A stretch of DNA of 64,000 nucleotides. Origin: Verrucomicrobiia bacterium (GTDB lineage: Bacteria > Verrucomicrobiota > Verrucomicrobiia > Limisphaerales > UBA11358). The stretch covers positions 1 to 64,000 of the forward strand of contig JARLJW010000073.1 of assembly GCA_031290985.1 (NCBI GenBank). The letters are read 5' to 3'. Of this stretch, positions 3,408-64,000 are shown piece after piece; positions within the stretch are counted from its first letter, which is position 1; every line of letters begins with the position of its first letter. The notes under the pieces were generated by a model. That model did no database searches. It was not told the DNA's origin and was given only the letters and a program-made list of their open reading frames with translations. The position numbers and the translations under genes were made by a program.

Positions 3408-4016
3408 ATGACAGCTTCTCCGGTTTTCATATTCGATTTGGGCAAAGTCCTCGTCGACTTCGATTACTCCATCGCCGCGCGGAAGATCGCCGCGCGCAGC
3501 GACAAGTCACCGCAGGATTTGCATGCGTTTCTGGGCGCTTCGCCGCTGCTCGTGGATTACGAAAGCGGACGACTGACCCGGCAGGCCTTTTACGAGGCCA
3601 TCTGCGAGGCCATCCATTTCCGCGGCGACCTCGCGGAATTTGGCGGCTACTTCGCGGACATCTTTTCGGAAATGCCGGGGACGATTGCCCTGCACGCCGA
3701 GTTGCGCCAGCGCGGTTTCAAGACCTACATTTTCTCGAACACCAACGACCTCGCCATCGAGCACGTCCGCCGCAATTTCCCGTTCTTCGCCAATTTTGAC
3801 GGCTACATCTACTCCTACGAAGTCGGCGCGATGAAGCCCGAAACGGCCATCTACGAAGCCATGGAAAAGATGTGCGGCCGACGCGGTGCGGATTTGATCT
3901 ACATTGATGACCGCTCGGAAAACATCACCGCCGGCGCGGCGCGGGGCTGGCGGATAATCCTCCATGAGTCATCGGAGAAAACGCGGAAGGCGCTGGCCAA
4001 ATTCGACGCGTTATGA
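3408..4016 (+). CDS. HAD family hydrolase
   Basis: FIFDLGKVLVDFD (motif I), IFSNTND, KPETAIYEAMEK, YIDDRSENITAG; start chosen at MTASPVF. Confidence 0.85.
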   Translation: MTASPVFIFDLGKVLVDFDYSIAARKIAARSDKSPQDLHAFLGASPLLVDYESGRLTRQAFYEAICEAIHFRGDLAEFGGYFADIFSEMPGTIALHAELRQRGFKTYIFSNTNDLAIEHVRRNFPFFANFDGYIYSYEVGAMKPETAIYEAMEKMCGRRGADLIYIDDRSENITAGAARGWRIILHESSEKTRKALAKFDAL

Positions 4017-4028
4017 AATAAATTTACG

Positions 4029-4433
4029 ATGAAGCCGAGTGAAAAGTATGGCAATGAGTTCTTTTACCACCCGTTTACCGTAAAAAAGGCAGACGGACGT
4101 GAGTTCCAATGTCATGACATTGGCGTTTGCATCACTCCGAAGCAGGACGCGGCAATTACGTTAAATTATGCGTGGGGAGTGCTTCGCGAATTGGCAACGT
4201 GGACTTGTGATGAGTTTAAGGACCGTCCAACAACAGAGACATATCGGATTGTCATAGCTTGGAGTAAAAAAGCGCGTGAGAACCAAGGCCACATTGTAAA
4301 AATTTGGTCTGATCTTGCGAAGGTTCGCGAAGTTGCTGGATGCATTACACCCGAAGAATGCTCAAAACGTTTTGGGCCTGGCTGGACACCTTTTGCAAAT
4401 TGGCAAAAAGATGTCTTTGAACAAAAGGGCTGA
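4029..4433 (+). CDS. Hypothetical protein
   Basis: 134-aa ORF directly after the HAD gene; no family recognised. Confidence 0.55.
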   Translation: MKPSEKYGNEFFYHPFTVKKADGREFQCHDIGVCITPKQDAAITLNYAWGVLRELATWTCDEFKDRPTTETYRIVIAWSKKARENQGHIVKIWSDLAKVREVAGCITPEECSKRFGPGWTPFANWQKDVFEQKG

Positions 4434-4450
4434 GTTATCCGACAAGTTCC

Positions 4451-4505
4451 CGCTCATTCCGCAGCAACGTGAGGCCGCCGCCACGATCAAGGGCCCAGTC
4501 CATAT
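4451..4505 (+). pseudogene. Diverged remnant of a pcrA/uvrD 5' end
   Basis: 45/55 nt identical to 11594-11648 of the intact helicase; encodes PLIPQQREAAATIKGPVHI versus SLNPQQRLAAATINGPVLI. Confidence 0.7.
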
Positions 4506-4511
4506 TTAATT

Positions 4512-6743
4512 TTACCGGCACCGCACCAATATACGCAGCCGCACGGCCCGGTAATTTCCAGCATTGCCGGCAAACGTCCAATCGGGATTGTCCTTTGGTT
4601 GATTGCCGATGCCGATGTCCGCGTGCGTGCCTTCACGCCAGTGATTGACCGCGATCAAGGTTTGCCGGGCCGCATGGTCATGGATCTGCAGACAGCCATA
4701 ACCATCCTCCACGTCAGTCATTTCATCCCCGAAATCAAACGCATCGCCGGATGCATTTGGCACCTTCGCAGCATTTTGCTGGTCATAATTGTTCGGCCAA
4801 AATTCAATGTTGCCGCTGTTTAATTGCGTTCCGGCCGTGATCGTCTTGACGTTGGAATACACATTCATGTTGGTCACGTTTTGCTGAAAACGCGCCCCGG
4901 ATCCGAAGACGGGAATGCCGATCTTGCCGGGATCATCTGTGAACGCATCCATGGAGACATAAATGTCCCGGGTATTCCAATCCGGGTCTTGTAATTCCAG
5001 AAAATAAGCGATCCGGTCGAAGTGCGGGGGCAGGTTCGTGTGGTTATCAATTTTATATTTGATGGCCGGGCCGAGACCGGCCAGATCCAGGTCATAAACC
5101 ACTTGATAATCCTTCGCTTCCGGAACGTGCCGGCCGAGCCAGTCGCGTTTGGGCACTTCTCCGGCGCGGAAGGCACCGGCCGGCAGTCCGTCCTTGTTCA
5201 TTAAATTGGGCTGCGCCAGGCCGCTCCAGGCAAAGCGCATCGCGGCGGGACGTTTCACCTCGGGCGACGAAAGCACCACGCTCGAACCTTCAATGCGGGC
5301 ATCGGCCTTCACAAAGCCACCCTCATCCGCGTCGATGATTTCAAACCAATTCAGCGGCTTGCCGTCACGGCTCACGAGACCGCCACCGACGTTGTCAAAG
5401 TTGACGCGCATGGTATTGCTGGCCACGGTCATGGATTTGAATGTCGGTCCTGAATCGACCAGCTCATTGTGCCCGTAGGTTTCGGCCAGGGCACGTAAGG
5501 CGAGCCGGTGCCCCACATCCTGCTTATCCGTGGGATGGACATTTTTAAGGTCGGCAATGTCATTGATGACCACCATGCCCGTCTTGGGAATGGTGTTGGC
5601 CGCGACCGTTTGGGCCTCCCAGATTTCGGCCTCCTTTTTGGGATCGCCGCCATAATCGTAGGGGGCAATTTGCACAAAATAGCAGGGAAAATCACCTTCA
5701 CCCCACAACGTGCGCCACCCGGCCAGCAGGGCTTTCAGGTGTTCCGCATATCGCATTTCGTGGCCCACATCGGATTCGCCCTGATACCAAATCGCACCGC
5801 GGATGGCGAACGGGATCAAAGGATGGATCATGCCATTGTATATCGAAGTCGCCGAATAGAGACCATGCGGGGGCAGCAATTCATCCGGATAGGATGGCAT
5901 GGGCGGAACGGCTTCCCGGTTGGTCATCGCTTGATGAGCCGCCCGTGACCATTGGTCAAACTGATCCAGCGCCAAGGCCAGTCGCTGTTGGTGCGAGGCT
6001 GTGTGCGGATCGCCCTGCTCAATCCGTTCATACTCGTCGTGCAGGGCCGGCACGGCGGCAAATCCCTCCGGCGGTGTCCACAGTTCGATCAGCGTACCGC
6101 CCCGATGGACATCAATTAAGCCAACGGCCACACCGAGTCTGGCATTAAGCTCACGCCCAAAAAAATAGGCGACCGCCGAAAATCCCTGCCAGCCACCCTC
6201 CGCGACGGTCGCCGGGGTGCATGCTTTCCAAGTCCCTTCCATGTCGCTTTGGGGTTGCGACGCCCAATCGCTCTGCTCCATCAGCAGGCGAATGCCCGGA
6301 TGATTGGCGGCGGCAATTTCCGCTTTGGCGTTATCGCTGCGACCGATGCCAAATTCCATGTTCGACTGGCCGGCACACAACCAAACCTCACCCACCATGA
6401 CATCCTCGTAGATTAAAGTGTTCGAACCGCTCACGGTGAGCGTGTAGGGCCCGCCCGCCGACATGATTGGCAGCACCACTTTCCATTCGCCGCTGCCATT
6501 GGCTTTAGTGGTTTTGATTGTGGCACCAAGCTGGACGGTGACTTTATCGCCCGGGGTGGCCCAACCCCAGATGGTGATCGGTTTTTCTCGTTGCAACACC
6601 ATGTGACTGCCAAAGATATGCGGCAGACGGATCTCCGCCAGGATGGTGGCCGGACTGGCCAGACAACCCAAAAACGTCAGCATAAGGATCAACCGCCTCA
6701 AAATCATAATCCGGTGCCTTGCCAGTGGGATGGCCTGTTTCAT
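4512..6743 (-). CDS. Sialate O-acetylesterase-like SGNH protein
   Basis: IRLPHIFGSHMVLQREKPITIWGWATPGDKVTV, GEVWLCAGQSNMEFG, GAIWYQGESDVGH; signal peptide at the N-terminus. Confidence 0.88.
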   Translation of the reverse strand: MKQAIPLARHRIMILRRLILMLTFLGCLASPATILAEIRLPHIFGSHMVLQREKPITIWGWATPGDKVTVQLGATIKTTKANGSGEWKVVLPIMSAGGPYTLTVSGSNTLIYEDVMVGEVWLCAGQSNMEFGIGRSDNAKAEIAAANHPGIRLLMEQSDWASQPQSDMEGTWKACTPATVAEGGWQGFSAVAYFFGRELNARLGVAVGLIDVHRGGTLIELWTPPEGFAAVPALHDEYERIEQGDPHTASHQQRLALALDQFDQWSRAAHQAMTNREAVPPMPSYPDELLPPHGLYSATSIYNGMIHPLIPFAIRGAIWYQGESDVGHEMRYAEHLKALLAGWRTLWGEGDFPCYFVQIAPYDYGGDPKKEAEIWEAQTVAANTIPKTGMVVINDIADLKNVHPTDKQDVGHRLALRALAETYGHNELVDSGPTFKSMTVASNTMRVNFDNVGGGLVSRDGKPLNWFEIIDADEGGFVKADARIEGSSVVLSSPEVKRPAAMRFAWSGLAQPNLMNKDGLPAGAFRAGEVPKRDWLGRHVPEAKDYQVVYDLDLAGLGPAIKYKIDNHTNLPPHFDRIAYFLELQDPDWNTRDIYVSMDAFTDDPGKIGIPVFGSGARFQQNVTNMNVYSNVKTITAGTQLNSGNIEFWPNNYDQQNAAKVPNASGDAFDFGDEMTDVEDGYGCLQIHDHAARQTLIAVNHWREGTHADIGIGNQPKDNPDWTFAGNAGNYRAVRLRILVRCR

Positions 6744-48148: not shown

Positions 48149-51100
48149 TCAAGGCCCTGACCGGACCCGATAAAACTTTGCCGGGGCGTTGGTGGGGGCT
48201 GGGTCGGTGAATATGAAAACCCCTGATGGCACGGCATTGGTCACAAAAGCCGTCACCCATGCGATCAGATTGGTGGAGGACTGCACGGTGTAGCCGGACC
48301 CCCCATACGCGGTAACACTCATCTGAAACCGGCCATTGCCATACTGCACGCCCGAAAGCTGCGGAGGCGGCAAGGTTTGAACCGCCAAGTTCACGGTGTT
48401 TGTGGCGCTGAGCCCTCCAAGTTGCGCTACCGGAATGCCGCCCGCCAGTTTTGCGAGGTCCGAAGCGTTCAATGCGGCGCCATACAGCACCAGATCATCC
48501 AGATTCCCGGTGAACCAGCGCGACTGCCGGTCGGCGGTGACGCCACCGAAAACCAGCGGGTCAGCTTGGTCGAGCTGCCAGTTGACCGGTGCCACGCTGC
48601 CGACCTTGACGCCGTCAAGGTACAAACCCAACTGGCCGGCATTGCTGTTGGTCCGGGTAAACACCACGGCCACATGATGCCAAGCGCCGGCGGGAATGGT
48701 GCCCCCGATAAGATTCACGTCTTGCACACTGCTGGTGTTAAAGTGCTGCAACTGGATCTGGCTGCTGCTGTTGATATACAGACAAAGCTCATCTCCCGTG
48801 CCGCCAAACGCATCCCCTGCCCCCGTGTAAAATATGAAATCAACATTGGTGGCGTTGGGAACCGTGGTATGCCGGAACCAGGTGGCCAGCGTCCAGTCCG
48901 CGTTCGCCAAATTATAGGTGCTGGCGGGCAGCCAGGTCGCGAGGCGCGTCCCATTGCCGTCACCAACCGCCGTTAGCGCCAGCGATTGGGTGCTGCTGGT
49001 GGCCAGGGTTGCGGGCACGTTGGTGTCGTAAGCGCTGCTGCCGCCACCAAAATCTTCAACCGCGCCGGTCAATCCATAAATCGAGCTGTCGGTGACGCGC
49101 TTGTCCGCAGCCTGGCCCGGCGTTTCAAAATTGTAATATAACAGCCAGCGCGGGTCCGGACCCCGATCGGTTGCGACATAATTGAACGACGCCGCGCCAA
49201 CATGATTGGTGGCGGCGAACCGAGCGGTGTGGCCATCGCCCAACAAAGCCACCGCGCCGCCGGCAGGATTTGTGACGGTAAAAAACATTCCCGTCGCCAG
49301 TGTCTCGATGTCCGAAACCAGCGGACGCAAATCGAGGTCCACATAGGTGTTGGTCACCACCGTTAAATTGGTGCCCGCCGTCGCCGGGGGCGTGTTCACC
49401 GGTTTCACCGTGAGCGTAAAGGTTTCCGGCGTCTGGTTGGTGCCATCGCCCACCAGCAGCAGCACGCCGGCTGAACCATTTTGATTCGCCGCCGGCGTCA
49501 ACGTCACGGTCCGGCTCGCATTCGCGCCGCCCAAAACGATGTTCGCCGCCGGCAACAAATTGGTGTTCAACGAAATCGCCTGCACCGTCAACGACCCCGC
49601 CGGAGTTTCCGCGTCGCCCACCGTGAATGCATACGGTCCCGCCACCGCATTTTCATTGATGGATTGATCGGCAACATTGGAGATCGGCGGCGGCGTGTTG
49701 GTGTAAGCCAGCGGGGTGATGCGGATGTAATCGATTGTAACGTGATAACCACTTGAGTTCAGGTTGCTGCCCGTAACGGTGAAGCGAAATTTCCAGGTGC
49801 CGGCGTTGGTGAAGGTCGCGGTGCCCAGGTCAGTCACGTTCGCACCGACACCCGCAACGTAGGCATCCACCACGCTGCCAAGATTGCTGAAGGCGGGGCT
49901 GTTGGAGGCTGCGATGGCCGTCTGGAACTTGCCGGACGCGCCGCTCTGCCGGTAGCCGATCTTCACGTCCCATGGCCCCGGGAAAGGAACTGCCACTCCG
50001 AGCGTCATGTAGTCATTAACGCCGTTGGCTGCAAGTTGCAGCCCCGCGCCGGCGCTGAGCGTGTCCTGGCTGAACACGCCGGTCGTGTCGCCGCTGGAGA
50101 CATCGAGCACCGGGAGTTTTTCGGCCTGGTTGGCCAGCGCATTCCACAGGGCCCAATAGGCGGGCTTTTTCTGATAATTCTGGTCGAACGGAAATCCGCC
50201 GGTGTAGCCGTTGTCACTGGCATCCGTAAATCCCCAGGTTTGGAAAACGGAGAAATGCGGCTGGCTCAAAGCCACGCTCATGACGTTCCAATAAACTTCT
50301 GCCTGCGCCGCCAGGTCCACCGGTAAGGCCACCCCATTGGTTTCTGGTATGGGTACGGACATTTCAGTGATCTGCAAATCCAGGCCCAGATTGTTGAACC
50401 GCTCAAAATTCGCGAGCATGCTGCTGTAATTGAAACCGCCTTCGCCCACGTGCATCTGAAAACCGATCCCGTTCAGCGGCACGCCGCGGCCCAAGAAATC
50501 CTGCGCCATCGCATAGATGGCGTCGGATTTGGCGTTGGTGGTTTCCGTGGAATAATCGTTGTAGATCAGCCGTGCATCCGGGTTGGCGGCGCTGGCGCGA
50601 CGAAACGCGTCTTCGATGTAAAGCGTGCTGTTGGCTGGGTTAAAATCTCCAATGCCCGGATTGTCATACCAGAAATTTGTGGTCCGGATCTGGCCGCTGC
50701 TGTTGAAGGCTTCGTTCACGACATCCCAGCAGAAGGTGCTGCCCCGATACCGTCCGGCGACCGTGTCAATGTGATGAAACAGATAGTTCCGTATCTGATT
50801 GGTGGCGTAGCCCCCGTTGGTCAGCCAACTCGGAAGCGATTGGTACCACATCAGCGTATGGCCGCGCGCCGCCTGTCCGCCGGCGGCGTCAAACCGCAGG
50901 GTCGTGTCCGCGTTCGACCAGGTATAAAAGTATTCCTGCGTCCGCAGGGCCGCCCACTTCAGGTCATTTTCCGGCGAAGACAACGAGTATTGCCAGCGGA
51001 GGGTGCCCGCGTAGGCGGGAGTGGTCAGCATGGCGGGCTGGACGGCGGAACCGATCTTCAAGCCCGGCCAGTTTGTCGCCGCCTCCTTCAGCGTTTCAGC

Positions 51101-51184
51101 CTGGGTGGCGCAGGCCCGGGCCAGCAGCAAAATGATCATCGCAGCTCTTGCGAACAAACCGGGGCGCGCGCGGATAAAATTCAT
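48149..51184 (-). CDS. Endo-1,4-beta-xylanase (GH10) with C-terminal LamG-like domain
   Basis: GHTLMWYQSLPSWL, WDVVNEAFNSSG, LDLQITEMSVPIP; LamG-like WTLATWFRHT...WHHVAVVFTRT; ends FYRVRSGP. Confidence 0.92.
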   Translation of the reverse strand: MNFIRARPGLFARAAMIILLLARACATQAETLKEAATNWPGLKIGSAVQPAMLTTPAYAGTLRWQYSLSSPENDLKWAALRTQEYFYTWSNADTTLRFDAAGGQAARGHTLMWYQSLPSWLTNGGYATNQIRNYLFHHIDTVAGRYRGSTFCWDVVNEAFNSSGQIRTTNFWYDNPGIGDFNPANSTLYIEDAFRRASAANPDARLIYNDYSTETTNAKSDAIYAMAQDFLGRGVPLNGIGFQMHVGEGGFNYSSMLANFERFNNLGLDLQITEMSVPIPETNGVALPVDLAAQAEVYWNVMSVALSQPHFSVFQTWGFTDASDNGYTGGFPFDQNYQKKPAYWALWNALANQAEKLPVLDVSSGDTTGVFSQDTLSAGAGLQLAANGVNDYMTLGVAVPFPGPWDVKIGYRQSGASGKFQTAIAASNSPAFSNLGSVVDAYVAGVGANVTDLGTATFTNAGTWKFRFTVTGSNLNSSGYHVTIDYIRITPLAYTNTPPPISNVADQSINENAVAGPYAFTVGDAETPAGSLTVQAISLNTNLLPAANIVLGGANASRTVTLTPAANQNGSAGVLLLVGDGTNQTPETFTLTVKPVNTPPATAGTNLTVVTNTYVDLDLRPLVSDIETLATGMFFTVTNPAGGAVALLGDGHTARFAATNHVGAASFNYVATDRGPDPRWLLYYNFETPGQAADKRVTDSSIYGLTGAVEDFGGGSSAYDTNVPATLATSSTQSLALTAVGDGNGTRLATWLPASTYNLANADWTLATWFRHTTVPNATNVDFIFYTGAGDAFGGTGDELCLYINSSSQIQLQHFNTSSVQDVNLIGGTIPAGAWHHVAVVFTRTNSNAGQLGLYLDGVKVGSVAPVNWQLDQADPLVFGGVTADRQSRWFTGNLDDLVLYGAALNASDLAKLAGGIPVAQLGGLSATNTVNLAVQTLPPPQLSGVQYGNGRFQMSVTAYGGSGYTVQSSTNLIAWVTAFVTNAVPSGVFIFTDPAPTNAPAKFYRVRSGP

Positions 51185-52548: not shown

Positions 52549-53307
52549 TTATTTTCCAGCCGCCTTGGGCTCGCCCGCCTCCGCCGTCTTCAGACAGGGT
52601 GCCAGTTCCGGCACCGACTGGGCCAGCCCCGTCACCACCAGCTTGGCAAAGACCGTGCTGCCCTCGGCATTCAAGTGCGTGTTGTCCACCGTTTCCACGG
52701 CATTGGTCCCCTTGACGCGCGCACTCAACTCATTGCACTTTTCAACGCCAAGCTGCTCGCACAATTCCTTGCTGCTGGCGTGCAGATCAATCAACGGCAC
52801 GTTCTTTTCCGCCGCGATCTTTTTCACCACCTCCACATAAGGCACCAGGCTCGACGTGATTTTACCGTCGCCATTTTTGTTCCATGACCGCCGCACGAGC
52901 GACGTGACCAGTACCGGCTTCGCGCCGATGGCCCGCGTCTCATCCACGTAGCGCGTCATGTTTTCGCGGTAGGTCGTCTCCGGCTGCGTCTCGCGCTCCG
53001 GCCCCTTCCCCGGCTCGTCATTGTGACCGAACTGGATGAGGTAATAATCCCCCTTCAAGGCCAGCGCGTTCGTCCACCGGCCCTCGGCCATGAAGCTCTT
53101 GGAACTGCGCCCGTTGGCCGCAGTATTGATGCACTCCGCCTTGTCAGTGAGTAATTGTTTAAAGCCCGTGCCCCAGCCGGTCCGGTCATTCACCGTCGAA
53201 TCGCCCACGAGGATGATTTTGACCTTCGCCGGCCTGGCGTCATCCGCCGCCATCGCTCCGGCGGAACAAAGCAAGGCGGCGGCCAAGAAAAGAAATTTGG
53301 ATTTCAT
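52549..53307 (-). CDS. Rhamnogalacturonan acetylesterase-like SGNH hydrolase
   Basis: KIILVGDSTVNDRTGWGTGF, YLIQFGHNDEPGKGPERET, VDNTHLNAEGSTVFA. Confidence 0.88.
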   Translation of the reverse strand: MKSKFLFLAAALLCSAGAMAADDARPAKVKIILVGDSTVNDRTGWGTGFKQLLTDKAECINTAANGRSSKSFMAEGRWTNALALKGDYYLIQFGHNDEPGKGPERETQPETTYRENMTRYVDETRAIGAKPVLVTSLVRRSWNKNGDGKITSSLVPYVEVVKKIAAEKNVPLIDLHASSKELCEQLGVEKCNELSARVKGTNAVETVDNTHLNAEGSTVFAKLVVTGLAQSVPELAPCLKTAEAGEPKAAGK

Positions 53308-53534: not shown

Positions 53535-54317
53535 TCATTTTTCTACAACCACCTGCGCGCCATCCATCATCACATCAAACTTGTAATTATATCCGAAGTC
53601 CTTGTTCGTGGAGAGGATTCCCGTCACCAGCACGATGTCGCCCAGCTTCGCCGGGGAAGTGGTCGTGACGGCCAGGTCCAGATCATTTTTAGCGGGACTG
53701 CCGGAACCGTCCCGGATGTGCAGCCAGTTTTTCCCGAGGATCATCGCGTTATATTTGACCACCCGGCCGCGTACGGTGACCGGTTTGCCGGCCAGCGAGG
53801 GGGCGGCCGCAAAAATTTGCTGGATCGTTTTCCCGCCGGCAGCCGGTTTGATTCCCGTCAGGCTCAAGTCGGGGGTCGCGGTTTGACCGGCGAGGGGCGG
53901 ATGTCCCGGTGGCAGGACTTGCGGCGGAGCCTGGGCCGGCATGCCCGCCACGGGCGGATGTCCGGGCGGCAACGCTGCCTCCGGGCTGGCGGCACCGTTG
54001 ACCGAAATGCTGCCGGTGAAATAGACCAGGGCAAAATCGCGGTTCAACGTCTTGCTGTGGTAGTTTTGCATCGGGTCGCCCGCCGCGAATGTGACCGTAT
54101 CCCCCACTTTGACGGCAAACCGCGTCGAGGCGGCCCAAACTTTGTTCGTCCCGGTATCCGCCAATACGTACGTATAGCTGGAGGCGTCCATGGTTTCAAC
54201 CACCTTGCCCGTGAGGTTGCCTTCAGTGGCAAAAACGGCCGGAGCCGCCGGCTGGGCGCCGGCAAACGGGAGGGGGACGACCAGACAAGCAATCAACAGG
54301 AGACGTTTCATATTCAT
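53535..54317 (-). CDS. Periplasmic OB-fold-like protein associated with the cytochrome cluster
   Basis: Signal peptide; GKPVTVRGRVVKYNAMILGKNWLHIRDGSGSPAKNDLDLAVTT OB-fold-like; LPPGHPPVAG/LPPGHPPLAG repeats. Confidence 0.7.
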   Translation of the reverse strand: MNMKRLLLIACLVVPLPFAGAQPAAPAVFATEGNLTGKVVETMDASSYTYVLADTGTNKVWAASTRFAVKVGDTVTFAAGDPMQNYHSKTLNRDFALVYFTGSISVNGAASPEAALPPGHPPVAGMPAQAPPQVLPPGHPPLAGQTATPDLSLTGIKPAAGGKTIQQIFAAAPSLAGKPVTVRGRVVKYNAMILGKNWLHIRDGSGSPAKNDLDLAVTTTSPAKLGDIVLVTGILSTNKDFGYNYKFDVMMDGAQVVVEK

Positions 54318-54355
54318 GTTATGTTGGGTTGGTGGTTAAAATTTCGCCGCGTCTT

Positions 54356-56152
54356 TTAATAGGCACTGTTCTTGTGATCCACACCGTGGCACATCAGATT
54401 ACAAGTGCCCTTGAACGTGCCGGTGGAAATGTAGCCCAGCAGCCCCTGTGAATTTGGCGTGACGTAGCTGGTGTTGAAATTGATGAGGTGCGGCACGGTG
54501 GCAACCCCGTGGGAATCGTGGCAGGTCGTGCAGGCGGCCATGTCCTTCACGACGTGTGAATTGTGGAGCGGGAAGCTCCGGCCGCTCAAAACCACGTTCC
54601 GGTCATGGCATTTATAACAGAGCGCGTAAGCGACGGTGCTTTCAGGCTGGTTGTCCACCAGCGTGAGATTCCGTTCCAAGATGGGCCGGTAGATGGAACC
54701 GTGCGGGCCGTTGGCCCCGGCTCCGCCGGCTTTTGGCCCCGTATCACTGTTGTGGCAGTCGGTGCAGTACATCAGGCTGTTCCGCGTCCACGGGGTGATC
54801 AGGCTGGGCACACCGGCCGGGTTTTTACCAGGCATTTCAACCGGATGAAAGCTCTGGTTGGCGCTGGAAAATTGCAGGCGCGTATTCGTCTCGGGGAACT
54901 GCCGCGTGACTGCCGCCGGACCGCGCGCGACACTGTCCGCATGGCAGCGGTAGCACAATTCATATTCCTTTAACAGGGGCTTGATGACGCCGCCCGCGGC
55001 GGTGACTCCGGTGACCCCGGCCAGCGCGCCAGAGGCGTTGGGCACGGCCGCCACCGTGGCGTTGGCCGCGTGGGCATCATGGCAGTCCGCGCAGACCACA
55101 TGCCGTTCCTTCGGATTGATGGGGTCCTCCAACGGCGAATGCGCCCGGGGGTTGAGCGTGATGGGATGGATGCTGATCTTTTGAAAATCAGACGCGATGT
55201 TTTTCTTCACCGTGACGCCATCGTGGCAGTTCAAGCAATTTTGCTCCGGGACCGCCGACTGCAGCAGATGTTTGCTGGAACCGGACTTGTGGTTCATATG
55301 GCAGGTTTCGCAGCCCATGGCCTGGATGCTCGCGCCCATGGCCTTGGCCGACAACGCCGCCTTGCTGGAGGCGCCGGACTTTTTGGCGAACCGCGCCACG
55401 ATCGACTGCGGAACGGGCAGCGGCGAAATGGCATGGGCGGAGGTGGTCCACTGCCCCGGCTGATGACACACGGCGCACAGGGCCGAACCGCTGTTGTTCA
55501 TCACCAGGAAATTGTTAAACTGGTTGTCGTGGGGATTGTGGCAGGAGGTGCATTGCACATCGTACTCGCCGTTCAACAGCTCCAGCTTGACCGCTGGATT
55601 CAGCCCTAGCCGCGGCTGCAACGTGGAATCAGCCTGCGCACACAGGTCATAATTCATCGAAATGGGATGGTCACTGGATAGGTCCGTGCCGAGATTTGCG
55701 GGGTCTCCGACCGGCATGGTGGTGATGGTCGCACCGTTTTGAGTGACCGACACCGGCATCACGCTCGTGCTGATGCTGCCGAGCGCCACCGTGCCGTCGT
55801 GGCAGCTCAAGCAAAGCCGCGAGGAACCGCTCGGCTGCGGGATCGTGATGTTTAATGATTGCAGCCGGGAGCTGGTATACACCACGTAGTTGCTCACCGA
55901 AGACATGGAGTGATTCCACAGCGGCGTCACTCCGTTGGCCTTGTGTACCGTGTGGCAGAAGATGCACGGATTATTTTGGGAGGCGGACTTGATGGTGCCG
56001 GGGCCGCTGGCCGACAGGTTGTGGACGGAATTAATGACGCTGTCCGCCCTGACCGGACCGGCACAGGTGAGCACAACCAGGATCAAGCCCAGTTGCCGCC
56101 AAAAGGTCCGCAGACCATCCGGCACACCCAATAATGGAGGAAAATTTTTCAT
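54356..56152 (-). CDS. Multiheme c-type cytochrome, 11 CXXCH plus one CX3CH
   Basis: CIFCH, CLSCH, CTSCH, CAVCH, CETCH, CLNCH, CADCH, CYRCH, CTDCH, CYKCH, CTTCH and CNLMCH; signal peptide. Confidence 0.93.
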   Translation of the reverse strand: MKNFPPLLGVPDGLRTFWRQLGLILVVLTCAGPVRADSVINSVHNLSASGPGTIKSASQNNPCIFCHTVHKANGVTPLWNHSMSSVSNYVVYTSSRLQSLNITIPQPSGSSRLCLSCHDGTVALGSISTSVMPVSVTQNGATITTMPVGDPANLGTDLSSDHPISMNYDLCAQADSTLQPRLGLNPAVKLELLNGEYDVQCTSCHNPHDNQFNNFLVMNNSGSALCAVCHQPGQWTTSAHAISPLPVPQSIVARFAKKSGASSKAALSAKAMGASIQAMGCETCHMNHKSGSSKHLLQSAVPEQNCLNCHDGVTVKKNIASDFQKISIHPITLNPRAHSPLEDPINPKERHVVCADCHDAHAANATVAAVPNASGALAGVTGVTAAGGVIKPLLKEYELCYRCHADSVARGPAAVTRQFPETNTRLQFSSANQSFHPVEMPGKNPAGVPSLITPWTRNSLMYCTDCHNSDTGPKAGGAGANGPHGSIYRPILERNLTLVDNQPESTVAYALCYKCHDRNVVLSGRSFPLHNSHVVKDMAACTTCHDSHGVATVPHLINFNTSYVTPNSQGLLGYISTGTFKGTCNLMCHGVDHKNSAY

Positions 56153-57177
56153 GGCTGACCGAGGTATTTGTAAATCTGCACGCGGTGATTGAACGAGTCC
56201 GCCACGTAGATCCGGTTGTCTGCGCCGATGGCGATCCCGTTGGGCAGGGATAAATCACCGGGGCCGCTGCCCCCGGCGGCAACATTGAGGAGCAGCCGGC
56301 CGGCGTCATCAAAAATCTGAAAATTGTCAAACACCGCGTCCACCACGTAGCTGTGCCCCTCCGCATCCACCGCCACCCCCTTGGGCCGCGCGAAATGGCC
56401 GGAGGTGTCGCCGTTGCCGCCGAACTGCGACAGAAAATTCCCCTGCAGGTCAAACGTTTGCACCCGGCAATTCATCGTGTCGGCAACCAGCAGATGCCCG
56501 CGCGCATCGGCGGCGGCGCAGGTGGGAAAATTGAATTCGCCCGGCCCCGTGCCGCGCTTCCCGAAACTGGAGCGGAATTGGCCGTCCAGCCCAAAAACAA
56601 AAACGGCGTGCGCCTGTGCGTCCACGACGAACAAGGCATCACCGGCGATGGCCAGCCCCACCGGGCGCTTCAGCGGCGCGCTGATTTCAAAAACCGCCTT
56701 GCCGTCGTCGCGGAAGGCGAAAACTTTAGCCAGCTCTGAATCCGCCACATAAAAAACTCCGCCGCGCCGGGCCACGGCGACCGGTGACGCGAATTTAACC
56801 TTCCCCACCCCGGCATATTGCCGCCATTTCTTGCGGCCGAAATCAACGTAGCAGACCAGGTTGGCATCCGTATCCGTGAGACAAAGATTGCCGGCCTCAT
56901 CCAGCGCCACCCCGAACGGCTTGCGCAGATTAAACCTTTCACCTGTGTCCCCCGTCAACCAGCCCGCCAGCCTGTGCCATGCCCCCGGCTGCTGGCCGAT
57001 GTCCGCCGGACCGTGCAGGCTGTGGTCATAGCGGATGCGCGGCTCGTTGGGGGCCGGCGGCCAGACCGGGGCCGGCGTTTCCGTCGTCACCACCCGCGAC
57101 GACGGCGTGGCGCACGAGACCAGCAGGCTGGCCGTCAGGCCGGCCAGCATCATTTTCCATGTGGACCGTGCGTTCAT
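56149..57177 (-). CDS. NHL-repeat beta-propeller lipoprotein
   Basis: Start at MNARSTWK; lipobox LLVSC; NHL-type repeats (KPFGVALDEAGNLCLTDTDANLV, RPKGVAVDAEGHSYVVDAVFDNFQIFD). Confidence 0.88.
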   Translation of the reverse strand: MNARSTWKMMLAGLTASLLVSCATPSSRVVTTETPAPVWPPAPNEPRIRYDHSLHGPADIGQQPGAWHRLAGWLTGDTGERFNLRKPFGVALDEAGNLCLTDTDANLVCYVDFGRKKWRQYAGVGKVKFASPVAVARRGGVFYVADSELAKVFAFRDDGKAVFEISAPLKRPVGLAIAGDALFVVDAQAHAVFVFGLDGQFRSSFGKRGTGPGEFNFPTCAAADARGHLLVADTMNCRVQTFDLQGNFLSQFGGNGDTSGHFARPKGVAVDAEGHSYVVDAVFDNFQIFDDAGRLLLNVAAGGSGPGDLSLPNGIAIGADNRIYVADSFNHRVQIYKYLGQP

Positions 57178-57178
57178 G

Positions 57179-59206
57179 TCAGAAATTACGCCGCATGCGT
57201 ATGAAAAAGTAATCACGTTCGCGGGTCTCCGTCGAGAACTGCTGGTCATCATGCTGATAACCCGCGTGAAATTCCAGTTTGCCGACCGTCCAATCCAGAT
57301 AAATGCGCCCGGCAAACATATCCTCGTCATAACCGCCGCCGCGCTGCTGCTGAAAGCCCGCCTCCGCATTCACACTCAAGGGGCCGGGCGGATGCCAGTC
57401 ATAATGAAGCATATAACTGTAGAAAGCCAGATCTTGGGCCGGCGTGTCCCCATATTCGGTGCCCGCCGAAAAATGGTTCCATTGCTGGTTCAGATTGATG
57501 CTCATGCTGGAATGGAGGGAAAGCGGGGTCGCATAACTCTCCACCAGGGAATAGATCCGCGTCGAGGAATACGTGGCACGTTGATCAGTGTAAGTCGCAC
57601 CCGCATGCAGGTTATGCCAGTTGACATCGCCGCCAAAATCAACTTCTTCCATGTCCTGCAGAATAAACCCGGCGGCATTCGCGTGATTCATGGTCCGGCT
57701 GTAACCGGCATGAATCCCCGCCCGATCCCCCCAAAAACGCAGGCTGATCTGCCCCTGATAAGTGAACACCGAGTAGCTGCCCGAGGGGTTCGACTGCACG
57801 ACATACGTAATGGCGACCACGTCGCCATTGCTGACGTTATGCAGCCCGCCCGAAAAAAACTGGATCCGCCAAGGATCTGTGCCCGTGTTCGCCACCCATT
57901 CGTTGCTGTCCAGCGGGACACCATTTTTAGTGATGGTAGTAACGGCAATGTCCCCCGGTGTCCGCAGGGTGATGATCATCGGGCCCTGCGCGGGAATGGT
58001 GTAAGATTCACCCGGGACCGTCGTTTCCGGACCGGTGGCCTGCTGGTCCGTCAGGTCATAAGACATCCCGTTATCGATGGATAAATGCCCCCAATCACCC
58101 AGCCGCTTGGTGTAGTCCGCCGACTCCGAAGTCCCGATGCTCTTCGCATCAATGCTGGAGTCGTTGTAACTGCTGTTCACCGTCGACCCGTGCACATCCA
58201 TCTGGGATGCCAAGCTGTCAAAGAGCTCGTGACGGAGACCAGCCGAAACGTTGTTTTGAATTGCATCGTAGCCATTGCCAAAATTGTCGTTGAACGCGTA
58301 GTTGTAGAAATTTTGCAGGTGCGGCGTCAGCTCCATGTTGAAGTTCAACGCCGCATTCAGCGAGGAGGCGCTGGTGCCGCCATAATCCTGCTCCGTGAAA
58401 TATAACGATGAAGCCAGGGTGTTTTTATTAAAATGTTCGGAGTCCGTCAGGGCGACGTGCTGGGATCTGCTTTGGCTGGAATAAGACGTGCCGCCATTCT
58501 GGGTCTGGTTTTCATATTCGTTGAATTGGTAGCCAAGGTCCGTCTGGTCCAGTCCTTTTCGTTGATTGTTCGCGTGCAGGTCCAGCTTGAGCTGCGAGGT
58601 GTCGAAAGTCTGGCTGTAGGCGTCGCGTTGTTCATCGAGCTGTTCCAGACTGATCGTCACCGGCACCAGCCCATCGCGATAGCCCGTAAAAACCCCCCAG
58701 CCGCTCGAGTCCACGGTCTCCGAGTTGAAAAAATCATATTGCACGTCCTGATGCGACCGGTTGAAGGAAAACGTGGTGGCATAGGGCTTGACCTCCAGCA
58801 GGGTGACCGAGCCGTGGCCGTTCAACATCATCTCCTCCGTCTGGGAACTGGACGATCCCGACCGGGTTTGCTGCCAGTAATAACCCGGCTCAAACAGCAG
58901 CGAATAGGTCAGCAAATCCGGATGGTAAACGTAATTGTTCCATTGGATGCCGACGGCGGGCATCACGGACACCCAGAACAAATCCGGCACGTTGCCGCCC
59001 CCGGAGGACTTGTAAGTGCTGCGCTGCGACTCCACGTCTGTTTTAACATAGGTCACATGCGGAACCAGCATCGTCCACAGCGGGTCTTCCCGGTACAGCC
59101 CCCAACCGCCGCTCTGCGCCAGGCCGCGCGACGCCCCGGTCGCCAGCACCAAGGTGGCGATGGATGCCGGCAGATACCTGAGATATGGATGCGGGCGCGG
59201 ATTCAT
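57179..59206 (-). CDS. Putative outer-membrane beta-barrel protein (porin of a porin-cytochrome complex?)
   Basis: Signal peptide, alternating aromatic/polar strands, C-terminal ...RDYFFIRMRRNF ending in Phe; 675 aa; overlaps the upstream cytochrome stop (ATGA). Confidence 0.75.
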   Translation of the reverse strand: MNPRPHPYLRYLPASIATLVLATGASRGLAQSGGWGLYREDPLWTMLVPHVTYVKTDVESQRSTYKSSGGGNVPDLFWVSVMPAVGIQWNNYVYHPDLLTYSLLFEPGYYWQQTRSGSSSSQTEEMMLNGHGSVTLLEVKPYATTFSFNRSHQDVQYDFFNSETVDSSGWGVFTGYRDGLVPVTISLEQLDEQRDAYSQTFDTSQLKLDLHANNQRKGLDQTDLGYQFNEYENQTQNGGTSYSSQSRSQHVALTDSEHFNKNTLASSLYFTEQDYGGTSASSLNAALNFNMELTPHLQNFYNYAFNDNFGNGYDAIQNNVSAGLRHELFDSLASQMDVHGSTVNSSYNDSSIDAKSIGTSESADYTKRLGDWGHLSIDNGMSYDLTDQQATGPETTVPGESYTIPAQGPMIITLRTPGDIAVTTITKNGVPLDSNEWVANTGTDPWRIQFFSGGLHNVSNGDVVAITYVVQSNPSGSYSVFTYQGQISLRFWGDRAGIHAGYSRTMNHANAAGFILQDMEEVDFGGDVNWHNLHAGATYTDQRATYSSTRIYSLVESYATPLSLHSSMSINLNQQWNHFSAGTEYGDTPAQDLAFYSYMLHYDWHPPGPLSVNAEAGFQQQRGGGYDEDMFAGRIYLDWTVGKLEFHAGYQHDDQQFSTETRERDYFFIRMRRNF

Positions 59207-60210
59207 TTCGGTTTCGCCGCAGGTTTCAACAGGTTTTTATCCGTGCCGACGTGCGGATCGTGGCACAGCGTGCAGCTCTTGCCCTCCGCGCCGGCATGGC
59301 CTTTGACGGCTTTCAAATCCTTGTCGTCATGACAGTCGCCACAGAGCTTGAGGGTGTTCTTCAGGAGCAGCTTGTCCTCGGTGGATTGGTGCGGGTTGTG
59401 GCAGCCGGCGCAATCCTCCACGACGTCGTGCTGAAACTTCGCCTTCTCCAGGAAATTGTCGTGGCAATCCCAGCACAGTGCCGGTGTGTTTTTTTTCACC
59501 AGCTTCTTGTTGTTCGAGGCGTGCGGCGCGTGGCAGGCCAGGCAGTCACCGTCGCTGACGGGCTGATGGACAAATTTCTTCTTCGCGATGTCATCGTGAC
59601 AATCCATGCAGGTGTCCTTCACGGATTTCTTGAGCAGGCCCTTGAAGTTGGTCGCGTGCGGCGCATGGCAGTCCAGACAGTCGCCGGCCTCGACCGCCTG
59701 ATGCTTGAATTTCATCTTCGCCAGCGGATCGTCATGGCACGTCAGGCACAGATCGTTGCCTTTCTTGACCAGCAGATGCTGGTTGGGCGACTGGTGCGGC
59801 GAGTGGCAGCTGATGCATTCACCGTTTTCAACCGGCTGGTGCTTCACCTTCTGCCCGGCCAGAAAGTCCTTGTGGCAGTTGAAGCAAAGCTGGGGCGCCG
59901 GGGCGGTCAGTTGCTGCGAAAACGACGAGACATGGCATTCCGCGCATTTGTTCTGGATGAACGGCGGATGAAAATAGTTTCCCGGCGGCTTGGGCTTTTC
60001 CGCCGGCTGGGCGGTTCCGGCCACGGTGTTGGTGGTGACCACCACCCCCTTGACAACATTGGTGGAAGTGACCGAGGCATTTTCCGCCGGGACACCGTCA
60101 AAGAAAAAGGTCAGCCACTTCCGATTGGTCGCCGTGGTGCAGCCGCTGGTCAGCAACAGCCCCGCCAACGCGGCCATCAAGCCCCGGAAAAATAGCTGGT
60201 TCAATTTCAT
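59203..60210 (-). CDS. Multiheme c-type cytochrome, 11 CXXCH, probable lipoprotein
   Basis: CAECH, CFNCH, CISCH, CLTCH, CLDCH, CMDCH, CLACH, CWDCH, CAGCH, CGDCH, CTLCH in 335 aa; LLLTSGC near the N-terminus. Confidence 0.94.
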   Translation of the reverse strand: MKLNQLFFRGLMAALAGLLLTSGCTTATNRKWLTFFFDGVPAENASVTSTNVVKGVVVTTNTVAGTAQPAEKPKPPGNYFHPPFIQNKCAECHVSSFSQQLTAPAPQLCFNCHKDFLAGQKVKHQPVENGECISCHSPHQSPNQHLLVKKGNDLCLTCHDDPLAKMKFKHQAVEAGDCLDCHAPHATNFKGLLKKSVKDTCMDCHDDIAKKKFVHQPVSDGDCLACHAPHASNNKKLVKKNTPALCWDCHDNFLEKAKFQHDVVEDCAGCHNPHQSTEDKLLLKNTLKLCGDCHDDKDLKAVKGHAGAEGKSCTLCHDPHVGTDKNLLKPAAKPK

Positions 60211-60257
60211 GTTTGCGTTTCCCGGCCCCCGCCAGCGGACCGACCACCGTGAATCAT

Positions 60258-61367
60258 TTATTTTTTATGGCCAAAACCGTAGATGCTCACCTTGTGGGTG
60301 CCCATTTGATTGATCACAATCACGAGGTATTCCACCTTGAAATCCGGCGCGGCGTAGCTTTGAAAATAACCCACGTCGTCATAATCCAGTGCCACCTTGG
60401 CCGGCAGGTTTTGGATTTCCCGGGTCGCTCCCGGCTCGCCGAACCAGGTCAAAGGCCGTCCTTGCTCGTCAAAAATCTGGACCACCTGCGACAACGCATC
60501 GACCGCGTAAAGGCGGTTCTCCCGGTCCACCGCCACGCCTTTCACCCGCGCAAACTGTCCGGTGCTGTCGCCCATGCCGCCGACGTGCCGCAAATGATTC
60601 CCGTCGGCGTCATACACCTGCACCCGGAAGGCCCCCGTGTCCGAAACGTAAAGCCGGCCTTGCGAATCCAGCGCCAAATTGGTGGGCATGAACAGGCGGC
60701 GCGCCACGTTCGTACCATCCGATCCCCGGGGAATATCGAATAGATTGGTTCTTGTCGCCTTGTCGTAGACATGCACGCAGTGATTTTGGATGTCCGCCAC
60801 ATAAATCCGGTCCCGGCTCAACGCCACATCGCGCGGCTTCATTTCCCCGACCTTGCCCAGCGCCGCCACATAATCCTGGTTCTTGTCAAAAATCACCACC
60901 TGGTCGCGGCCCGAATCCGCGACATACAGGGCGCCATCCGTGTCCACCGCCAGGTTCAGTGGCACCCTCAGCCGTCCCTCTCCATCCCAGCCCTTCAGGT
61001 GCATCTCCCGCGTCTGCAAATCGACCACGATCAACCCGCCGTAGTCCGTGTCGCAAATGTAAAATTTCTTTCCACTGGCGGCCACGCCATAGGGCTTGGA
61101 GATTTCCTTGGTGGCCGGCTTCTGGCCGGTGACGTACGACATGAAACTGCGGTCATTCCCGCCACGAAACTCCTTCTCAGTATGAAAAGCGGTTAGGAAT
61201 TGGAGGTGCGGCTCGTCCGGCGGCGGCGGGAAAAATTCATAGGTCTTTTTGGCCGTCTGGTTGGACGTGGCGCAACCGGCGATCAGGCCCAGGGCTGCGG
61301 CCGCAATCACCACGCGCAAGCCCGTTAATTGTAAATTGTCCAACGTTTTTTGGATCGATTTATTCAT
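60258..61367 (-). CDS. NHL-repeat beta-propeller lipoprotein (second copy)
   Basis: Start at MNKSIQKT; lipobox LIAGC; repeats KPYGVAASGKKFYICDTDYGG, VPLNLAVDTDGALYVADSGRDQVVIFD. Confidence 0.88.
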   Translation of the reverse strand: MNKSIQKTLDNLQLTGLRVVIAAAALGLIAGCATSNQTAKKTYEFFPPPPDEPHLQFLTAFHTEKEFRGGNDRSFMSYVTGQKPATKEISKPYGVAASGKKFYICDTDYGGLIVVDLQTREMHLKGWDGEGRLRVPLNLAVDTDGALYVADSGRDQVVIFDKNQDYVAALGKVGEMKPRDVALSRDRIYVADIQNHCVHVYDKATRTNLFDIPRGSDGTNVARRLFMPTNLALDSQGRLYVSDTGAFRVQVYDADGNHLRHVGGMGDSTGQFARVKGVAVDRENRLYAVDALSQVVQIFDEQGRPLTWFGEPGATREIQNLPAKVALDYDDVGYFQSYAAPDFKVEYLVIVINQMGTHKVSIYGFGHKK

Positions 61368-61550
61368 ATGTCTGGTTTGGTTGTACAGGGGTTCTGCTCC
61401 CCGTTGGTTCTGCATAAGCATCTCCCACTCCGGCACGCATGACTAAACCTATCTTGTCTTTGTATCCGCATAATTTGTGTAGTCGGAATTTTGACGACGC
61501 TGGCCCCGTCCTCCGCCCATCGCCACCAATCGGTCTCCAAGCCGTGTCCC

Positions 61551-61585
61551 TAAAAAAGCGAGACCCTGTTTGATCAGGGTCTCGC
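61551..61585 (-). terminator. Rho-independent terminator downstream of the tetraheme cytochrome
   Basis: Minus-strand GCGAGACCCTG-ATCAAA-CAGGGTCTCGC followed by TTTTTT. Confidence 0.9.
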
Positions 61586-61627
61586 GCGATGACCGCGCCG
61601 AAACCGGTGCGGTTGTTTGCAATTCAA

Positions 61628-62389
61628 TTACTGTTGGTGGCAGGTTTCGCAGAGCGCCGCATTGTTCAGGTCCACAATCAGGTCGTGGCTGATCGTGGCC
61701 GACGCGCCGACGACACGATGGATGTCATGGCAGGAGGCGCACTCCACGGTTTGCTGCGGGCCCTTCAACATCTGCGCGAAGACCGTACCGGCTGCCGGCA
61801 AGGGACGTAAGGTCGGATCCGCGACGATTGCCGCCGAATAGCTGACCCCGATCGGGTGCATATGGGTCAGGTTGTTATTGCCCAGATAGGGGCCGCTGCC
61901 CGTGGCTCGCACAAAGTCGCCAGCGGTGGCGGCAGTCGTTTCCACGGCAAAGGTCGGGACATAGAACGCCGTGGCCCCGGCGGTCTTGCCGTTTTGGCTG
62001 GGCAGCGTCGCACCATAGCTCTGATTGACCGCCACGGAACCGTCGTGGCAGCTCAAACAGGCGGCCGATGAACCGAGTGTCGCGGTGAGGTTCAACGCAT
62101 TGAACGTGAGACTGTTGCCTTGATCATACGTGACATAGCTGCTGTTTTTCGAGGCGGCATGATTCCACAACGGGGCGTGGGTCTGGCCGGCATCCGGCGC
62201 TTTGTGCGGGATGTGGCAAATCTGGCAGGGATTGTTGTAGGTCGTCGTCTCGCCACCATAGATATAGGTCGCATATCCGTTGGTGCCGGAACTGAAGTCG
62301 TGGGTTGATCCAATTAACGTTGCCTTGCTGACCGATGGCATCAATGCCACCGTGGCTCCCAAGGCGAGGAGCATTGTTAGTTTTTTCAT
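61628..62389 (-). CDS. Tetraheme c-type cytochrome
   Basis: CQICH, CLSCH, CASCH, CETCH; shares PLWNH and CLSCHDGSVA context with the 54356-56152 protein. Confidence 0.9.
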   Translation of the reverse strand: MKKLTMLLALGATVALMPSVSKATLIGSTHDFSSGTNGYATYIYGGETTTYNNPCQICHIPHKAPDAGQTHAPLWNHAASKNSSYVTYDQGNSLTFNALNLTATLGSSAACLSCHDGSVAVNQSYGATLPSQNGKTAGATAFYVPTFAVETTAATAGDFVRATGSGPYLGNNNLTHMHPIGVSYSAAIVADPTLRPLPAAGTVFAQMLKGPQQTVECASCHDIHRVVGASATISHDLIVDLNNAALCETCHQQ

Positions 62390-62525
62390 AGTTGTATTGT
62401 GCACGTGCTGTTTTTAGTTAGTTCCATCCCGAAGTCGCCTGACGCCGGGCGGTTCCAGCGAAAAACCAAGCACGTACTCTGCGCCTGACTCTTCGTTGAA
62501 AATGTTTTGTTCATGACAAATTCTT

Positions 62526-63601
62526 TCAGGCGGCCACACCGCCCATGATCCAGCCGGGCAACAACTCCACGGCTTCCGGCGCTTTTTGCCGGGGGACGAT
62601 TCAAGCTTGCTCATCAGTTCGGCCGCGCGGCCGGCGATGATTTCATTGCAAAAGGAAAGCTCGTGTTCGCGGTTCTTCGTGTTTTCGCGGACCACGGCCT
62701 CCAGATCGTCGATGTCGTACAGGAATACATTTGGCAGTTCCGCCACGGCGGGGTCGATGTCGCGCGGCACCGCGATATCCACCAGAACGAGCGGGCGATT
62801 CCGGCGCGCGGGCAAAATCTTTTCAATGTCTTCGCGGCGCAGGACGATGCCCGGGCTGCCGGTCGAACTGACCAGGATGTCGGCCTCGGTCATCGCCGCG
62901 GCAGAATCCTCGATGCGCACGGCGCGTCCGCCGAATTCCGCGGCGAGCTTTTCCGCGCGCTCGACCGAGCGGTTGGCCACGAGCACCGTTTTCGCGCCGC
63001 GCTTGGCCAGATGTTTCACGCAGGCCTCGCCCATTTTTCCCGCGCCCACAATCATCACCGTCTTGTCGCTGAGGTCGCGGTCGAAAACTTTCTCGGTCAA
63101 TTCCACCGCCACGCTGCCGACGGAGGTGGCGCCGCGGCCGATCGCTGTGTTGGTGCGGATCTGCTTCACGACCTGGCAGGCGGTCTGGAACAGCCGGTTC
63201 ATCTTCTTGCCGGTCAGCCCCGCGTCTTTGGCGGCTTGATACGCATTCTTGACCTGGCCGGTGATCTCCGTCTCGCCCAGCACCATGGAATCCAGCCCGC
63301 TGGCGACCGCGAACAGATGTTTGGCCGCCTCGGCACCTTCCTTGACGTACAGATGGGGCGTGAAATCAAAATCCGTGTTCGTCAGTTCTTGAAAGAGCTG
63401 TTGCACCCGGCCGTGGATCCAGGGCGAGACGCCGTAGATTTCCACGCGGTTGCAGGTCGAGAGGAGCACCACCTCGGAGAGATTGCCGCGCAGTTTCAAA
63501 CGGCAGCCACAGCATTGGAGGCGGGCGCGTGACACGGCGAGTTTCTCACGCACCTCCACGGGCGTCGTCTTGTAGCTCAAACCTGCGACAAAGATTTTCA
63601 T
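62526..63601 (-). CDS. hemA: Glutamyl-tRNA reductase, apparent -1 frameshift near the 3' end
   Basis: MKIFVAGLSYKTTPVEVREKLA, LLSTCNRVEIYG, GLDSMVLGETEITGQVKNAY, VGAGKMGEACVKHL. The uninterrupted ORF runs to 62414; a -1 shift at CAAAAAG gives APEAVELLPGWIMGGVAA* ending at 62526. Confidence 0.9.
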
Positions 63602-63729: not shown

Positions 63730-64000
63730 TTATTGCTGCTTCCGGTCTTCGAGCGGGTGCTCGTGCTGTTGGAACTCCTCGGAGATCTTCCCGTCCAGAC
63801 ACGCCGTGTTCAGGGGGTACACATCCGGATCAAAAACGACGTGGTAGAAGTGCCAGACAACAATGGCGAGGCAGGCCAGCACGGCCTCGTAGTAATGGAT
63901 GGTGGTTGCAACCTCGATGGCCCAGCGCGGCAGAAAACGAGTCACGTCCAGTTTCAGCCAGATCATCAGGCCGGTGGCACCCATGAGGATCGTGCCCCAG
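63730..64000 (-). CDS. C-terminal part of a cytochrome-b-like membrane protein (truncated by the window edge)
   Basis: WAIEVATTIHYYEAVLACLAIVVWHFYHVVFDPDVYPLNTACLDGKISEEF; transmembrane helix with His residues; start lies outside or at the edge of the window. Confidence 0.65.
   Translation of the reverse strand, partial: WGTILMGATGLMIWLKLDVTRFLPRWAIEVATTIHYYEAVLACLAIVVWHFYHVVFDPDVYPLNTACLDGKISEEFQQHEHPLEDRKQQ

Follow-up and report, generated by a model that had tools for sequence, protein, structure and literature searches.

Even for Geobacter it is an open question how cytochrome filaments are assembled and wired to the cell; in the loci seen, the OmcE-type genes of that group sit apart from any barrel gene. 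The question is raised anew by a cluster of multiheme cytochrome, beta-barrel and NHL beta-propeller genes in a stretch of 64,000 nucleotides from a Verrucomicrobiia bacterium (assembly GCA_031290985.1, contig JARLJW010000073.1, positions 1 to 64,000), hereafter called the window. An initial annotation of this DNA read the cluster as a candidate porin-cytochrome conduit, with an 11-heme cytochrome and a barrel crossing the outer membrane and a 12-site cytochrome as a possible exposed reductase. Our analysis indicates that the cluster probably encodes something larger, namely an apparatus for extracellular electron transfer in which a nanowire of the OmcE type is joined to a conduit in the outer membrane.

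The case begins with the protein encoded at 61628-62389. Its four heme motifs (CXXCH) had been counted correctly, but its kinship had been missed: profile comparison shows it to be homologous to OmcE, the filament cytochrome of Geobacter. As a single sequence searched against the PDB, it matches OmcE (7tfs) with an E value of 1.2e-7 and entry 9yuq with 6e-18. A profile built from 18 relatives matches both end to end, with E values of 1.7e-36 for 7tfs (positions 13-237 of the 237 in the profile) and 1e-37 for 9yuq, and matches OmcS weakly (3e-4). The distal histidines H30, H62, H178 and H224 and the four CXXCH motifs are invariant in the 18 relatives and in register with those of OmcE, and the signal peptide ends in SKA, ahead of a T. 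Within filaments of OmcE, a heme receives a histidine ligand from the next subunit (PMC9473688); H30, the histidine that precedes heme 1, is likely the ligand handed to the neighboring subunit. In a maximum-likelihood tree of 143 domains, in which one row (L130) is a misplaced C-terminal fragment of a dodecaheme protein, OmcE and 9YUQ group with the tetraheme proteins in one branch with support of 100/96, separate from the N-terminal domains of the dodecaheme proteins described below, and OmcE falls within the tetraheme branch.

A search with the tetraheme profile found just two OmcE-like proteins encoded in the genome to which the window belongs, the tetraheme protein and the protein encoded at 54356-56152. 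The latter has 11 CXXCH motifs and one CX3CH motif (C584xxxC588-H589). This last motif, near the C-terminus at residues 584-589, is atypical; because it is invariant in 20 of 20 aligned relatives, we count twelve hemes, so the 12-site count was right. The first 230 residues match OmcE (7tfs) with E values of 5.5e-26 as a single sequence and 1e-42 as a profile, more strongly than the tetraheme protein does. In the alignment of 20 relatives, the N-terminal histidine (H44) is kept, and an additional invariant histidine, H240, stands right after the fourth heme. We found no match to the OmcA/MtrC model TIGR03507 at E values up to 0.1, and the generic MtrC/MtrF domain PF22113 scores 51 bits. As judged from sequence, two OmcE-like paralogues, one free and one fused to eight further hemes, are thus retained side by side. 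The role of possible exposed reductase had been assigned without the OmcE-like domain in view; because of that domain, the dodecaheme protein is probably more than a generic surface reductase.

Re-reading the window placed all genes of the cluster on its minus strand and bore out their coordinates and three tight junctions: 4-bp overlaps between the 11-heme and barrel genes (59203/59206) and between the second NHL gene and the dodecaheme gene (56149/56152), and abutting barrel and second NHL genes (57179/57177). The features are as follows.

63730..64000, minus strand: CbcL-like cytochrome, 3' end in the window; the gene spans 63730-65409 of the contig (559 residues) and extends past the window end.
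62414..63601, minus strand: hemA, glutamyl-tRNA reductase (heme supply); TIGR01035 at 371 bits against a cut-off of 210; syntenic.
61628..62389, minus strand: tetraheme c-type cytochrome, OmcE homologue and candidate nanowire subunit; profile against PDB, histidine ligands, tree.
61558..61585, minus strand: intrinsic terminator between the tetraheme gene and the remaining cluster; 11-bp stem with 8 GC pairs, TTTTTT tail, fold z = -4.2.
60258..61367, minus strand: NHL propeller lipoprotein 1; Pfam NHL at 1.2e-20, lipobox LIAGC, synteny.
59203..60210, minus strand: 11-heme lipoprotein cytochrome, candidate barrel plug or periplasmic wire; 11 CXXCH, Paired_CXXCH_1 at 8.7e-66.
57179..59206, minus strand: outer-membrane beta-barrel of 675 residues; AlphaFold2 model, MtrB as top fold match.
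56149..57177, minus strand: NHL propeller lipoprotein 2; Pfam NHL at 4.2e-28, lipobox LVSC, synteny.
54356..56152, minus strand: dodecaheme cytochrome with an OmcE-like 4-heme N-domain and an 8-heme C-terminal part; PDB match, alignment.
55460..56062, minus strand: OmcE-like domain inside the dodecaheme protein; tetraheme profile, E value of 2.1e-42.
53535..54317, minus strand: exported protein without assigned function; often the last cluster gene in relatives and syntenic in many.

The cluster had been taken to end at 62389, but hemA and the gene for a nine-heme, cytochrome b protein beyond it also belong, since both are syntenic in relatives. The OB fold attributed to the 53535-54317 protein is without support from a Pfam search, in which this protein had no match. 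A genome-wide scan with a DNA pattern for CXXCH was set aside, its matches being mostly due to chance.

The synteny search proposed in the initial annotation shows how far this arrangement extends. The barrel is present in 21 of 49 genomes of the window's taxonomic family, where the gene order is, with few changes, CbcL-like, hemA, tetraheme, NHL1, multiheme, barrel, NHL2, dodecaheme and small exported protein. In a scan of 84,980 species, relatives of the dodecaheme protein occur in at least 423 places, and the best 80 of these lie in Verrucomicrobiota, Planctomycetota, Nitrospirota, Gammaproteobacteria, Alphaproteobacteria, Bacteroidota, Ignavibacteriota, Desulfobacterota, Geobacteraceae, Calditrichota, Zixibacteria, Neomarinimicrobiota and Acidobacteriota. 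Models of the neighboring genes were built solely from the window's family and then used to find partners across phyla. At the 41 dodecaheme loci with at least 9 kb of upstream DNA, the tetraheme gene was found at 40, NHL1 at 36, NHL2 at 39, the barrel at 39 and all four at 34. The set of tetraheme, NHL, (cytochrome), barrel, NHL and dodecaheme genes therefore recurs in at least ten phyla as well as in the family. A cultured strain, Desulforhopalus sp. IMCC35007 (L104), has tetraheme, NHL1, 4-heme plug, barrel, NHL2 and dodecaheme genes. The occurrence of the set is scattered rather than universal, with the dodecaheme gene in 7 of 388 genomes of an even sample of the window's phylum.

In relatives (L042-L050), an extra protein of 7-9 hemes and about 850-1100 residues is encoded between the tetraheme and NHL1 genes; the one at L043:3871-6546 has cytochrome c554-like and PKD domains. 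Past the window end, at L009:10328-14998 (a numbering in which the CbcL-like gene lies at 3730-5409), a single frame of 1556 residues appears by eye to join an RND efflux pump to a NodT-type outer-membrane efflux protein.

The propellers had been called an unusual addition to such an operon. That both are lipoproteins with NHL repeats was confirmed by Pfam and the lipoboxes, with starts best set at 61367 (NHL1) and 57177 (NHL2), but they are not unusual: they recur throughout the module and beside the OmcE-type genes of Geobacteraceae. Around Geobacteraceae-related OmcE homologues (37-55% identity), the order 9-heme, 8-heme, NHL, OmcE, NHL holds in 11 of 11 loci read, so that NHL propellers are regular companions of OmcE-type genes. 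Beta-propeller genes have also been reported in other extracellular electron transfer operons (PMC12246660). In some Geobacteraceae-related genomes, the barrel-dodecaheme module forms a separate cluster; L164-L165 are examples of Geobacteraceae loci with the module.

The terminator provides evidence of another kind. A terminator follows 35 of 86 tetraheme genes (41%), at a median of 34 nucleotides past the stop codon, and 11 of 11 OmcE genes after removal of duplicates. The same scan finds one after 23 of 495 neighboring NHL, barrel, plug and dodecaheme genes (1-8% by gene) and in 6 of 300 crude shuffles. The Fisher p value for 35/86 against 23/495 is 7.5e-18, which is only indicative since the genes are related by descent. 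Because the terminator lies inside a block of co-oriented genes, it would allow the first gene to be expressed in excess, as happens for filament subunits. The pattern is that expected of an over-produced filament subunit, and it independently supports the tetraheme protein as a major, many-copy part.

We then consider the conduit. The AlphaFold2 model of the 57179-59206 protein (mean predicted local distance difference test, pLDDT, 85; predicted template modeling score 0.64) has 28-30 long, membrane-length strands, with a small beta domain inserted around residues 404-471, and the C-terminal phenylalanine, F675, is invariant in aligned relatives. Structure prediction, which the initial annotation had put forward as a check, thus gives a large barrel, by strand count big enough for a cytochrome, rather than the outcome of few strands or no lumen that would have counted against a conduit. 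The top fold match in the PDB, the first of 311 at E values of 0.001 or below, is MtrB of the Mtr complex (6r2q_B, E value of 2.8e-9, template modeling score (TM) 0.40); the matches also include usher and LptD barrels. A companion check, the search against family models, came out otherwise: none of the 20 barrels searched matched the MtrB or PioB models of Pfam and NCBIfam at E values up to 1.

The cytochrome encoded at 59203-60210 has the 11 CXXCH motifs initially counted, spaced about 23 residues apart in a two-heme repeat of about 45 residues. It scores 210 bits against decahem_GSU2203 (NF041028; cut-off 325) and 136 bits against the DmsE-type model TIGR03508 (cut-off 192), and it matches chain A of the Mtr complex (6r2q; E value of 1.7e-14), a chain whose record is labeled 'cystathionine beta-synthase'. 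By motif spacing and model scores, this lipoprotein is a paired-CXXCH cytochrome of the DmsE/MtrA type that falls under both decaheme-family cut-offs. The porin-conduit reading therefore stands as regards an MtrB-like barrel fold and a paired-CXXCH plug; close kinship to MtrAB or PioAB does not, there being no family match and a plug below the cut-offs. The 11-heme cytochrome and the barrel may function like MtrAB without belonging to those families by the tests made.

In relatives, the barrel stays near 650-750 residues while the heme number of the barrel-side cytochrome varies from 3 to 21, mostly in odd steps (5, 7, 9, 11, 13, 15, 17, 19, 21). In most Verrucomicrobiota this cytochrome, encoded before the barrel, carries 11-21 hemes (11-17 in the majority of family relatives), and in other phyla mostly 5. 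The extra hemes may lengthen a wire across the periplasm.

At the inner membrane, the protein encoded at 63730-65409 has nine CXXCH motifs at residues 28-272 and hydrophobic segments at 308-528 that form a cytochrome b561-like part (Pfam Ni_hydr_CYTB, E value of 9.8e-17). CbcL has been described as nine CXXCH motifs followed by a cytochrome b membrane part (PMC6295460), and by likeness to this published architecture we identify the protein as a CbcL-like inner-membrane quinol/quinone:cytochrome c oxidoreductase. The hemA gene of the operon is not the only one in the genome, as a second copy, 45% identical, lies at C72:123194-124222. Operon copies of hemA encode about 370-395 residues, and in the window copy the fit to the hemA model stops at about residue 334, the customary C-terminal part being absent. 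That this copy might be frameshifted was considered and dropped, as syntenic copies likewise end near 370 residues.

Taken together, these parts look like a complete set for sending respiratory electrons out of the cell, and they can be arranged into a path. The CbcL-like cytochrome would exchange electrons with the quinone pool, with quinol as the source. The 11-heme lipoprotein would carry them over the periplasm and, seated in the MtrB-like barrel, through the outer membrane. At the surface, the dodecaheme protein would pass them to a filament of polymerized tetraheme subunits, with humics or minerals as the final acceptors. Given its OmcE-like domain, the dodecaheme protein most likely serves as a dock or cap for the filament and so joins it to the conduit. 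Such docking predicts that H44 reaches the heme left open in the terminal filament subunit while H240 closes the dodecaheme protein's own fourth heme; by donating one histidine outward and sealing its fourth heme with another, the protein would act as a base or cap. The NHL lipoproteins may anchor parts or help assembly, the operon's own hemA would supply heme, and the terminator would let the tetraheme protein be produced in excess over the single-copy parts. Broadening this to a widespread unnamed system of at least ten phyla, in which the OmcE-domain dodecaheme protein is the docking base or cap that links a tetraheme filament to a conduit and the NHL lipoproteins are fixed assembly or anchoring parts, is a possibility that we put forward tentatively.

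Several points weigh against a nanowire joined to a conduit. AlphaFold2, run without hemes on 18 tetraheme sequences, gave no usable model (pLDDT 38), and a tetraheme relative of OmcE need not polymerize. A 2026 survey holds that OmcS-like genes cannot be presumed to encode nanowires (PMC12977616), and what cytochrome filaments do physiologically is a matter of dispute in at least part of the literature. More than half of the tetraheme genes are without a terminator by the scan used, and the Fisher p value overstates certainty since relatives are not independent samples. The modeled barrel is like MtrB at the level of fold only (TM 0.40). The barrel-side cytochrome gene is absent in some Gammaproteobacteria and Verrucomicrobiota. 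Clusters of this type that have no such gene (L039-L041, L071, L078, L080, L084, L106, L132) bear on the barrel's need for a dedicated plug. A plain porin-cytochrome conduit would consist of the barrel, the 11-heme plug and the dodecaheme protein as surface reductase, with the tetraheme protein as a non-polymerizing soluble or surface shuttle. The barrel resembles MtrB and the plug resembles MtrA/DmsE-type cytochromes, both the dodecaheme and the tetraheme proteins have signal peptides, and porin-multiheme clusters have been proposed earlier in Verrucomicrobia (PMC5615132). We nevertheless consider this arrangement unlikely, because the tetraheme protein groups with OmcE and retains all of the OmcE heme ligands, the N-terminal histidine among them, and because its gene has an OmcE-like transcript terminator.

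It is less probable still that the barrel serves chiefly as a port through which cytochromes are secreted or assembled, with the NHL proteins as assembly factors and electrons crossing otherwise. MtrB is the best fold match, a multiheme gene stands directly before the barrel in most clusters, the plug and barrel genes overlap in the window, and an 8-heme gene follows the dodecaheme gene in some of the clusters that have no barrel-side cytochrome. Such a port would nonetheless suit the constancy of the barrel, NHL1 and NHL2 as partners of the tetraheme and dodecaheme genes, a barrel-side cytochrome that ranges so widely in heme number or is absent, and the usher and LptD barrels among the fold matches. 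The same apparatus might also run inwards, with Fe(II), humics or a partner cell as electron donor, as homologues of CbcL, MtrH and MtoC, like porin conduits, are found in Fe(II) oxidizers as well as in metal reducers (PMC6295460). The direction of electron flow is not readable from sequence. Outward flow is most likely given the likeness to CbcL and OmcE, the closest named relatives, which come from Fe(III) reducers, and the adjoining polysaccharide-degradation genes, recognized by eye, suit electron disposal; we regard uptake as quite improbable.

Near the cluster, inspection by eye suggests a GH10 xylanase-like protein that includes a LamG-like part (48149-51184) and a GDSL-type esterase (52549-53307), a setting that resembles that of a plant-polysaccharide degrader.

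If the cluster does encode an OmcE-type nanowire coupled to a conduit, it brings together, within a single conserved block, a filament subunit, a dodecaheme protein with a matching domain, a barrel, a plug and two propellers. Because the parts share this block, the wiring of a filament could be tested by genetics and electron cryomicroscopy in a cultured host. OmcE-type filaments would likely extend to Verrucomicrobiota, Planctomycetota, Nitrospirota, Bacteroidota and others, and electron transfer to humics or minerals in those phyla would influence how carbon is turned over in anoxic soils and lakes.

Among known systems, the MtrB barrel has 26 strands, compared with 28-30 predicted here. MtrCAB, MtoAB and PioAB resemble the window cluster in their large barrel, for which MtrB is the best fold match, their multiheme paired-CXXCH plug and their exposed multiheme protein. 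They differ in that the window barrel has no MtrB/PioB family match, the plug lies under the DmsE/MtrA cut-off and is a lipoprotein with 11 hemes rather than 10, the dodecaheme protein is not an MtrC/OmcA member by cut-off, and two NHL proteins are extra. The inner-membrane component is like CbcL, MtrH and MtoC by description, with nine CXXCH motifs and then a cytochrome b membrane part. He et al. (2017) proposed clusters in the same phylum in which a porin with 20 or more transmembrane motifs lies beside a multiheme cytochrome and sometimes an extracellular one (PMC5615132). These share the pairing of porin and multiheme cytochrome, but their periplasmic cytochromes are described as having 8 hemes, compared with 11 in the window, and the paper states that homologues of the outer-surface cytochromes of G. 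sulfurreducens were absent.

The OetABI/OmcX/OmcS-like cassettes of methanotroph-partner sulfate reducers likewise cluster conduit genes with putative filament cytochromes, for which joint action was proposed (PMC10553843). In the available part of that report, the filament candidates are OmcS- or OmcX-like rather than OmcE-like, and no OmcE-domain dodecaheme protein is described. A literature search that did not cover Baquero 2023, Wang 2022 or PMC10734462, a Gallionellaceae study in which NHL repeats are named alongside porins and multiheme genes, found no description of a block of OmcE-type tetraheme, NHL, barrel, NHL and OmcE-domain dodecaheme genes. The closest counterparts of the tetraheme protein itself are the OmcE filament of Geobacter sulfurreducens (7TFS) and 9YUQ, which are likewise tetraheme and secreted, with four proximal and four distal histidines in register. 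The homology to OmcE is distant (E value of 1.2e-7 for the single sequence), and the window filament is a predicted one. Like the OmcE homologues of Geobacteraceae, the window tetraheme gene has NHL genes nearby and a terminator after it, but instead of flanking it the two NHL genes both come after it, one directly and the other further downstream. Finally, whereas no barrel or OmcE-domain dodecaheme gene stands beside the Geobacteraceae OmcE homologues, both share a cluster with the tetraheme gene of the window.

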